64,000 nt of DNA from Allobosea thiooxidans (lineage in GTDB: Bacteria > Pseudomonadota > Alphaproteobacteria > Rhizobiales > Beijerinckiaceae). Both the position numbers and the translations under genes were made by a program. Location of the stretch: positions 248,001-312,000 of the forward strand of contig NZ_FUYX01000001.1 in NCBI RefSeq assembly GCF_900168195.1, in the 5' to 3' direction. Positions 24,443 through 28,242 of the stretch are shown in pieces (position 1 is the first letter of the stretch; every line of letters starts with the position of its first letter). The notes under the pieces are model-generated. The model was not told where the DNA came from. It saw only the letters and a list, made by a program, of their open reading frames with translations, and made no database searches.

Positions 24443-25336
24443 ATGCCGCTCGGCCTGAACCGAACCCTGCTGACCACGATCCTCGTGCCCTGCCTCTGGG
24501 GTTCGACCTACATCGTCTTCACCCAGACGCTGCCGGTGGATCATCCGCTTCTCGTCGGAGCGTTGAGAGCCCTGCCCGCCGGCCTGCTGCTGATGGCGCT
24601 CGGTCCCGGCCTGCCGCCGCGCGACAGGCTCTTGCCGCTGGCCGTGCTCGGTCTCGCCAATATCGGCGTGTTCTTCGCGCTGCTCTTTGTCAGCGCCGCG
24701 CGGCTGCCGGGCGGGCTCGCCGCCACGGTCGGCTCGACCCAGCCGCTGATCGTCGGTCTGCTGGCCTGGCCGCTGCTCGGCCGGCGCCCGGGCCGCGGGC
24801 AGATCATCGCCGCGCTCGCCGGCCTCGTCGGCGTCGCCCTGCTGGTGCTCGACCCGCATGCGAAGCTCGATGCAGTCGGCATCGCCGCCGGCCTCGCCAG
24901 CGCCGCCTCCATGGCGACCGGGACCGTGCTGATCGAACGCTGGGGCAGGATGGGTTCGCCGCTGGCGCTGGCGGCCTGGCAGCTGACGCTGGGCGGGCTC
25001 GTCCTGCTGCCGGTGGCGCTGCTGGTCGAAGGCCCGCCGCCGCTGCCGACCGCATTGAACGGGCTCGGGCTCGGCTATCTCGTTCTGATCGGCACCGCCC
25101 TCGCCTATTGGCTCTGGGTCAGGGGCATCACCGCGCTGGGTAGCAGCGTCGCGTTTCTTGGGCTGCTCAGCCCGACGGTCGCGACCATCCTCGGCGCCGT
25201 CCTGCTCGGCCAGTGGCTCGGCGGGATGCAGTTGCTGGGCATCGCGATCATCCTGGGTTCGACGATCGCGGGAATGCTGCTCTCCCGCCGCGCGGCTGGA
25301 GCGGCCGCGGCTACGCCGCGACCCCGAGCCGCTTGA
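24443..25336 (+). CDS. EamA family (DMT) transporter
   Basis: This 297-residue protein has ten membrane helices in two EamA repeats; hallmarks are [15 protein letters not shown] in helix 1, [19 protein letters not shown] in the first repeat and [19 protein letters not shown] in the second. Such proteins export metabolites or amino acids. GGAG precedes the ATG by six bases. Its last 26 bases overlap the 3' end of murB on the other strand, so the module is packed tightly against the cell-wall genes. Confidence 0.9.
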
Positions 25337-26237
25337 TCTCCCACTGCAGCTCGAAGCCGGAGTTCTCCTTGACCCGGCGGCGAACCTCCTCGCCGAGCCC
25401 TTCGACATCGGCGGCCGTCGCGCCGCCGGTGTTGATCAGGAAGTTGCAGTGCATCTCCGAGACCTGCGCCCCGCCGACGCGCAGGCCACGGCAGCCGGCG
25501 GCATCGATCAGCTTCCAGGCCTTGCCGCCCTCCGGGTTCTTGAAGGTCGAGCCACCGGTGCGCTCCTTGATCGGCTGGGCCGCCTCGCGCGCCTGCGTCA
25601 CCCGGTCCATCTCGGCCTGGATCAGCGTCTGGTCGCCCGGCCTTCCCTGGAACAGGGCCGAGGTGAAGATGATGTCGCGGGTCGAGGCCGCGCTGTTGCG
25701 ATAGGTGAAGCCCATCTGCGCATGGCTCAGCGTGACGATCTCGCCCTTGCGGGTGACGCCGCGCGCCTCGACCAGCACGTCGGTGGTCTCGCCGCCATGA
25801 GCGCCGGCATTCATGCGCAGCGCCCCGCCGATCGAGCCGGGAATGCCGCGATAGAAGGCGAGCCCTTCGAGCGAGGCATCGGCCGCCGCGCGCGCCACCT
25901 TGACGTCCGGCACCGCCGTGCCGGCCCGCAGCCGGTCGCCGGTCTCCAGCTTGATTTCGCCGAAGGCCTTGCCGCCGAGCCGGACGACGACGCCGGGAAT
26001 GCCGCCATCGCGCACGATCAGATTCGAACCGAGACCGATCACCGTGACCGGGATCTCCTCGGGCAGCTTCGAGAGCAGATAGGCGAGGTCCTCGTCATCG
26101 GCCGGCGTGAACAGGATCTGCGCGGGGCCGCCGACGCGAAACCAGGTCAGGCCCGACAGGTCCTGATTGGCGAGAAGCCGCCCCCGCAGGTCGGGGGCCG
26201 AGGCGCGGATATCGGAGGAAAGGTCTTGGAAGGACAT
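25311..26237 (-). CDS. murB: UDP-N-acetylenolpyruvoylglucosamine reductase MurB
   Basis: This 308-residue FAD enzyme reduces UDP-GlcNAc-enolpyruvate to UDP-MurNAc. FAD-binding signature [15 protein letters not shown], the catalytic Tyr/Ser region ([21 protein letters not shown] and [17 protein letters not shown]) and a type I C-terminus are visible. No good ribosome site stands before the ATG; instead the stop codon of the DUF559 gene lies four bases upstream, which suggests translational coupling. The 3' end overlaps the convergent EamA gene. Confidence 0.97.
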
Positions 26238-26241
26238 GGGG

Positions 26242-26685
26242 CTAACCGCACGAACCCTTCTCCCCTCGGGGGAGAAGGTGGCCCGGCGAAGCCGGGTCGG
26301 ATGAGGGATGCCTGGCGAGACAGAGAGCGCTCGCGATCTCGCGCAGGACGAATTCGAGGTTTCCTAGCACGCGTTCATTGGGAAAGCGCAAGACCCGATA
26401 GCCTTCCCCCTTCAGGAAGGCCGTGCGGATCGCATCCCTGGTACGCGCTTCGAGGGTTTCGTGCGGCTCGCCATCGAGTTCGACGATGAGTTTCTGCTCG
26501 AAGCAGCAGAAATCCGCAACATAAGGGCCGATCGCCATCTGACGTTTGAACTTCAGGCCGGCGAAACGGCGGTTGCGAACAGCCTGCCAGAACAGAGCCT
26601 CAGCACGCGTCGGCTCGCCGCGCTGGTCGCGGGCGAGATCGCGGGTCCGAGATGAATTCCTCCGATGCAAGGCCGTGCCTTTCAT
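26242..26685 (-). CDS. DUF559 endonuclease-like protein bounded by palindromic repeats
   Basis: This 147-residue protein has the PD-(D/E)xK-like DUF559 fold related to very-short-patch-repair nucleases: [24 protein letters not shown], then YVADFCC with a candidate catalytic Asp, [11 protein letters not shown] with Glu-x-Asp, and [13 protein letters not shown]. Its last residues ([19 protein letters not shown]) are encoded by the repeat at 26254-26307, and another copy of the repeat unit lies upstream. The ATG at 26685 avoids coding through that upstream repeat. It lies inside the dcw cluster between murC and murB, with its stop four bases before murB. The enzymatic role is unproven. Confidence 0.8.
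26254..26307. repeat. Palindromic element, family E, single unit within the DUF559 3' end
   Basis: The unit has hairpin CTTCTCCCCTCGGGGGAGAAG, hairpin GCCCGGCGAAGCCGGG and the tail TCGGATGAGGG. It is translated as the last residues of the DUF559 protein. Confidence 0.85.
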
Positions 26686-26698
26686 CAAGCAGGCGCGA

Positions 26699-26828
26699 TC
26701 CTTCTCCCCTCGGGGGAGAAGGTGGCTGCGAAGCAGACGGATGAGGGCATCTTCGCTGCGTCTCACCTCGTCTTCCCTCATCCGACCCGGCTTCGCCGGG
26801 CCACCTTCTCCCCCGAGGGGAGAAGGAT
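26699..26828. repeat. Palindromic element, family E, two inverted units
   Basis: Two family E units face each other: the left begins TCCTTCTCCCCTCGGGGGAG and the right ends with its reverse complement, giving a long palindrome centred near 26765. The element fills the gap between the DUF559 start and the murC stop codon. Confidence 0.85.
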
Positions 26829-26835
26829 TTCGTCC

Positions 26836-28242
<1,407 letters not shown>

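Follow-up and report, generated by a model that had tools for sequence, protein, structure and literature searches.

A DUF559 nuclease gene paired with triplex-motif repeats between murC and murB in Allobosea thiooxidans, and its possible role in multiplying them

In the 64,000-nucleotide stretch of the Allobosea thiooxidans genome analysed here (contig NZ_FUYX01000001.1, positions 248,001 to 312,000; hereafter the window), a nuclease gene bounded by palindromic repeats lies, as the original prediction from the window's letters had it, between murC (26836..28242) and murB (25311..26237). The interval between these two genes is 598 bp long and holds one open reading frame (ORF; 26242..26781, 179 amino acids) which, like murC upstream of it and murB downstream, is on the minus strand. 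In a profile search the ORF matched DUF559 (PF04480) at 1.4e-34 (118.6 bits, cut-off 20.6) over residues 46-153. Its predicted structure has a Vsr-like fold and carries the conserved acidic and histidine residues, which places it, as had been proposed, among the Vsr-like PD-(D/E)xK proteins; the closest solved structures are 3hrl and, next, a homing endonuclease. The profile search found just this one DUF559 gene in the source genome, which is of the Bosea group (5.37 Mb in 34 contigs).

Three copies of a repeat that we call type A accompany the gene. Unit 1 (26256..26307, plus strand) lies at its 3' end. Unit 2 (26700..26747, plus strand) and unit 3 (26775..26826, minus strand, inverted relative to unit 2) lie on its 5' side and together make up a doublet (26700..26826, no strand) that resembles a REPIN, an inverted pair of repetitive extragenic palindromic (REP) sequences. 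The gene does start beside this two-unit palindrome, as predicted: the first ATG falls within unit 3, and it is plausible, indeed probable, that the real start is at 26682 (codon 34), giving a protein of 146 amino acids. The gene had also been said to end inside a third unit, and this was only partly right: unit 1, read on the minus strand, encodes the C-terminal tail (codons about 159-175), but the ORF ends 14 bp beyond it. The tail is predicted to be disordered (predicted local distance difference test, pLDDT, under 50). Exact matches to the core of the unit, CCTTCTCCCCTCGGGGGAGAAGG, occur in the window at 26256 (+), 26700 (+) and 26804 (-), against a mean of 0.00 in 100 shuffles, and a strict three-block triplex detector placed units 1-3 at 26256-26306 (+), 26700-26746 (+) and 26776-26826 (-) and found no others in the whole 64 kb. 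Units 2 and 3 together are predicted to fold, as DNA, into a single 127-nt hairpin of -54 kcal/mol (z -10.7). At up to three mismatches the source genome has 18 copies of the core, which we read from the list as seven inverted doublets and four single units; the six doublets elsewhere in the genome measure 113-155 bp and differ in their inner spacers.

E. coli repeats of the triplex-motif type, named BoxC or PIT, have been on record since the 1990s and are associated with instability of the genome. A type A unit consists, in order, of a pyrimidine arm, a loop, a purine arm, a small second hairpin and then GGATGAGGG, and in all three window units this final block mirrors the purine arm except for a single A-to-T change. 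Judged by its letters, the plan is that of an intrastrand triplex motif, called BoxC, PIT or TM_ECO in E. coli, which in published outline likewise runs from pyrimidine arm through loop, purine arm and spacer to a mirror purine third strand, the difference being that the type A spacer is a second hairpin. The arm-to-third-strand spacing in type A is 16-20 nt including that hairpin and exceeds the 1-6 nt loop rule of Holder et al., a rule that is satisfied by types C, D and part of B (see below). Because the second hairpin takes type A past this limit, we file it under the same plan rather than as a strict member of the triplex-motif (TM) class. When every hairpin near a DUF559 gene was read on both strands, giving 704 strand readings, its own mirror was found downstream in 327; with another unit's arm the mean was 52.1 and the largest value 67. 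Near DUF559 genes, then, the mirror block changes along with the arm. At several sites two small palindromes (such as ATCAAAGTCGG...CCGACTTTGA and ATCTCGGGC...GCCCGAGAT) are inserted in the loop of a triplex-motif hairpin, one repeat nested within another; the sites are L322, L324 and L327 between murC and murB (genomes G008, G001 and G020), L085, L095 and L116 with type D, and L355 (G014) at an intergenic slot by leuD.

The pairing of DUF559 genes with these repeats is far above chance, clade-specific and genome-wide, and we consider it practically certain to be real. In 61 genomes of the genus, 79 profile rows gave 75 DUF559 loci (two fragment pairs merged, two weak rows omitted); DUF559 is present in 44 of the genomes and the hairpin, in its simplest form, in 51. 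Outside the genus, 90 loci were taken from 89 of 108 strong-match genomes (the best match of each, one genome twice). A strict motif, defined as a perfect 8-bp hairpin plus a mirror third strand, lies within 300 bp of the gene at 69 of the 75 genus loci and at 78 of the 90 loci from the rest of the Pseudomonadota, and its density near the gene is 43 times (genus) and 58 times (other Pseudomonadota) that beyond 1.3 kb in the same loci, so that the predicted flanking above background is borne out. Units stand on both sides of the gene at 40/75 genus loci and 42/90 wider loci. A test that used no motif found an exact inverted match of at least 14 bp across the gene at 48/74 (genus) and 40/90 (wider) loci, compared with 5 of 990 and 4 of 591 control windows, respectively. 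A protein scan of other genomes gave 24 named loci, several of them from the same genus, and the strict motif is near the gene in 21.

Repeat flavour and DUF559 clade go together as well. The flavours first seen were A (loop CTCGG, as in the window), B (CTTGC, CTCGC or CCTGC) and C (GGAT); reading the flanks added D (CCCTCTCCTGTAAGGAGAGGG), E (CCCCTCCCCCTTGTGGGGAGGGG) and F (CCTTCCCCCCGCTTGCGGTGGGGAAGG), all of the same plan, and the rows lacking A, B or C labels fall, with one exception, in three clades, those with the D, E and F palindromes. On a tree of the genus domains, covering 72 of the 75 loci (three partial domains dropped), the A, B and C labels need 5 changes where shuffling gives a mean of 38.1; type A forms a single clade (98/100). 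On the wider tree, with coarse flavour classes, 42 changes are needed versus 82.9 when shuffled. As read from these trees, repeat flavour tracks DUF559 clade.

The number of repeats rises with the presence of the gene. In the genus genomes, for the three flavours that the dose test covers and with gene fragments counted as carriers (e.g., G001 and G020 for A), the median number of type A repeats is 15 with the A gene and 1 without (p 1.7e-7), that of type B repeats 20 and 2 (p 4e-4), and that of type D repeats 23.5 and 3 (p 2e-6). No carrier is without its cognate repeat (A 0/17, B 0/14, D 0/12), and seven of the nine off-diagonal tests, which set a gene against a non-cognate repeat, were not significant at 0.05. 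Among 398 Pseudomonadota genomes, 81 of the 110 that have a strong DUF559 match carry at least five hairpins of the form CCYTCTCC-N3-9-GGAGARGG, as against 17 of the 288 that lack one (odds ratio 45, p 2.6e-42), 35 weak-match genomes (E 1e-10 to 1e-3) being counted among the latter. When the gene label was shuffled within 16 mixed families, copied by hand, the observed value was never reached in 5000 trials.

The claim that the cassette is mobile fared differently for different types. With loci whose flanks are both homologous taken as one site, 73 of the 75 genus loci could be counted (L149 and L154 were dropped), and they fall into 2 sites in 17 loci for type A, 2 in 14 for B, 9 in 16 for C, 11 in 13 for D, 3 in 6 for E and 5 in 7 for F. 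Four loci at contig ends (L092, L094, L111 and L121), with most of one flank missing, count as separate sites by default; corrected for this, B, D and F may have 1, 10 and 3. Sixteen of the 17 type A loci are at murC-murB and the window cassette therefore looks sessile, whereas type C and D genes sit at many sites together with their repeats, so that mobility, as far as flanking sequence can tell, is seen in sister types. The empty sites that had been expected between murC and murB in relatives do exist: of 30 intervals read, 18 have no gene and are 2-177 bp long. Nor was the repeat found to be as common away from the gene, an outcome that the original prediction had raised against itself; a strict unit within 300 bp of MurB was found in none of the 18 gene-free genomes. 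One gene-free interval, of 52 bp (L328, in G032), keeps a lone type A hairpin that is perhaps an excision or deletion scar.

Thirty loci were read at the leuD slot: six genomes have A doublets there, one has a B doublet, one an altered A doublet and two have single hairpins. The remaining 20 showed no unit; seven of these were unreadable to the right flank and three were long intervals partly shown. Some relatives without triplex-motif units in the murC-murB or leuD slots have CGTC-like REPs of the GCGTCATGCTCGGGC...GCATGACGG type there instead (L306, L308-L312, L314, L315 and L318 at murC-murB; L343, L347, L354 and L362 at the leuD slot). These are a different sequence family from the triplex units and use the same intergenic slots, and it follows that two REP superfamilies share them. 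CGTC-tagged REPs are mostly alpha-proteobacterial and, in Di Nocera 2013 (PMC3733652), are stated to have no dedicated transposase.

The pairing recurs in other phyla. Three Deinococcus plasmids (L367, L368 and L369) have DUF559 beside triplex motifs inside hpa (4-hydroxyphenylacetate) clusters; by the strict detector the motifs are on both sides in two of them, and the third has one side and a disrupted second. In these three plasmids the gene stands between different neighbours within the clusters, as if moved locally. In the Clostridia, an Oscillospiraceae bin (L274) has two units that follow the DUF559 stretch at distances of about 7 and 163 bp; they have the form CCTCCC...GGGAGG-TGGCCCGGCGAAGCCGGGTC-GGAGGG, and their inner hairpin is the one found in the Bosea unit. 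No motif was found at a second Clostridia locus (L273) or at a Labrys locus (L272), and a Pseudanabaena DUF559 gene has C6/G6/G6 palindromes by eye and none by detector.

E. coli K-12 offers a model organism case, with evidence that is weak and correlated. Its DUF559 gene, ycjD, lies between fabI and sapF, and YcjD, annotated as DUF559, has the same conserved residues as the window nuclease. A looser detector, tolerant of a single mismatch in the arm, places a triplex motif over the 3' end of ycjD in two strains and a second, inverted motif 168 and 61 bp past the end. The arrangement at the 3' side of the gene is thus similar to that in the window; the flavour (CCCTCGCCC...) and the fabI-sapF site differ. 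The second unit has the sequence of TM_ECO no. 9 in Table 1 of Holder et al., listed there at 1351204-1351239 of MG1655 (PMC4666352), which is 168 bp from the end of ycjD in that strain. The ycjD-overlapping unit is degraded in K-12 MG1655 (L366), with the third strand lost, and intact in two other strains read. Present in 3365 of 5426 complete E. coli genomes, ycjD goes with a median of 19 motif places in 40 records, versus 6 in 19 records without it; these 59 records are 60 evenly spaced among 5011, less one plasmid record, and 442 of the 5426 genomes, without a match, were left out. With two places subtracted per ycjD record the median is 17 (p 2e-7). According to PMC12817139, A, B1, C, ST69 and ST182 have ycjD, and elsewhere the eef operon occupies its position; efflux-type genes adjoin sapF in three strains without ycjD that we read.

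The window system shares much with RAYT (REP-associated tyrosine transposase, or TnpA-REP) genes and their REPINs, and the predicted likeness to that pairing, with a different nuclease family, has held up. In both, a nuclease gene is bounded by inverted palindromic units, inverted doublets are dispersed in the genome and unit type follows enzyme clade. The differences are that the window ORF matches PF04480 and not PF01797, its product being PD-(D/E)xK/Vsr-like rather than an HUH Y1 tyrosine transposase, and that its units carry the mirror third strand. Vsr, whose substrates are T:G mismatches, goes together with a cytosine methyltransferase; set beside Vsr and Caulobacter VsrA, the window nuclease has murC and murB as neighbours. 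It also differs from the EDxHD homing endonuclease I-Bth0305I (3r3p) in being a free-standing single domain between repeats, in neither an intron nor an intein. The RIME elements of rhizobia, about 100 bp long, contain two large palindromes of similar sequence.

We lean towards the view, first raised in the original prediction, that DUF559 itself moves or multiplies these repeats, as a RAYT-like but unrelated nuclease of Vsr/homing-endonuclease fold; both catalysis and mobilisation are what we infer here. We would also, with about the same inclination, regard the murC-murB locus as the one 'master' locus of a system, selfish or domesticated, that has two parts, DUF559 and the repeats it recognises. 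The DUF559 protein would bind its cognate unit when this is extruded or single-stranded, as a hairpin or triplex, for instance on the lagging strand. It would then nick or cut at the unit, with a hydrolytic active site like that of Vsr or homing endonucleases rather than that of a tyrosine transposase. Repair or replication from the break could copy doublets into new intergenic slots, and occasionally the gene between two units might be copied along with them.

Several observations weigh against this proposal. The window cassette has not been seen moving, and no target-site duplication was evident at murC-murB when filled and empty intervals, which are highly diverged, were compared by eye. 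Twelve of the 90 wider loci have no strict motif nearby; six of these have an inverted match of at least 14 bp, and DUF559 without any repeat, which the original prediction had named as a danger to itself, comes down to the 6 of 90 loci in Pseudomonadota with neither. Cognacy is imperfect, in that genomes with A or D genes also have more B repeats (p 0.015 and 0.013, respectively), and some carriers hold very few cognate units (for B, one in G054 and three in G053). The searched hairpin, a pattern that covers only some flavours, is missing altogether from 14 of the 110 DUF559 genomes. Conversely, repeats persist without the gene: the 17 of 288 genomes with at least five hairpins have no strong DUF559 match (e.g., G259, with 102), and G048, in the genus, has 13 type A and 33 type B units, yet only a D gene. 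In E. coli the units are one-sided, with no motif found 5' of ycjD in two strains by the loose detector, and the correlation between ycjD and motif number follows phylogroup (PMC12817139), so that it may rest on very few events. Finally, a repair role has been proposed for a Caulobacter DUF559 protein (PMC12907096, considered below). Orphan repeat populations are expected if the gene can be lost and the repeats would decay slowly; even so, these populations and the imperfect cognacy keep our confidence in DUF559 as the mobiliser at the level given. Six genomes (G007, G015, G048, G259, G114 and G211) have many units and no DUF559 or no cognate DUF559, for which recent gene loss, assembly gaps or another mobiliser are candidate explanations.

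The main rival, possible but in our judgement unlikely, is that DUF559 is a maintenance nuclease which cuts or recognises extruded hairpins, triplexes or mismatches at the repeats and so protects the chromosome; the gene would be kept where repeats are abundant, and the flanking units, on this equally unlikely addition, would be its own regulatory or attenuator elements. A Vsr-like fold, here predicted, and a sessile type A gene both suit such a role, as does what PMC12907096 says of Caulobacter VsrA (CCNA_02930), a protein that contains a DUF559 domain, is proposed to be a mismatch-repair enzyme and is required for the SOS response that is switched on when ScmA methylation (YGCCGGCR) is lost. 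However, a housekeeping repair gene need not sit with its repeats at about 9 (type C) and 10-11 (type D) sites, two-sided units at 40/75 and 42/90 loci are more than one regulatory element requires, and orphan repeat populations survive without the gene. Those same orphans, together with the place of a homing endonuclease next after 3hrl among the closest solved relatives, and with gene-free repeat sites in the source genome that outnumber the one with the gene, would fit a passenger gene that homes into pre-existing repeats as landing sites while the repeats spread by other means. We find this improbable: repeat abundance rises with the cognate gene, both in the genus and within families, and landing alone does not predict that.

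Most improbable of all is a reading in which a RAYT or some other Y1 transposase moves what are ordinary REPs in trans and DUF559 is there by chance. The inverted doublets of 113-155 bp do resemble REPINs, but profile searches found no PF01797 (Y1/RAYT) match in the source genome or in 55 of the 61 genus genomes. Four Y1 loci that were retrieved contain one strict motif in total, about 780 bp from the match, and none within 700 bp, and no GTAG tag was seen at the foot of type A units, by eye rather than by formal scan. Chance is excluded by the flank-motif, inverted-match and 398-genome tests, and this explanation is largely refuted.

We return to DUF559 as the mobiliser and to what it would mean. 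Holder et al. 2015 (PMC4666352) describe the triplex motif as intergenic, partly in inverted doublets and present in more than 260 genomes, report no transposase or integrase remnants beside it, and state that its origin is unclear. DUF559 is a candidate partner for these motifs, a partnership that we did not find in print in the open-licence literature searched, and which could be stated elsewhere. We give roughly even chances to the broader proposal that DUF559 represents, across phyla, a second class of REP-mobilising enzymes, unrelated to the first. Such an enzyme would read triplex-forming palindromes, would have evolved jointly with them in Proteobacteria, Deinococcota, Cyanobacteria and Clostridia, and would explain the origin and spread of BoxC/PIT. 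If so, a partner nuclease would turn the unexplained origin of BoxC/PIT into a testable question in E. coli K-12 (ycjD, 23 listed units), and partnerships of a REP with a nuclease would have arisen at least twice, with unrelated enzymes. It would also bear on the view of Caulobacter VsrA as a mismatch-repair enzyme, and would give a function to a large family that is annotated only as DUF559.
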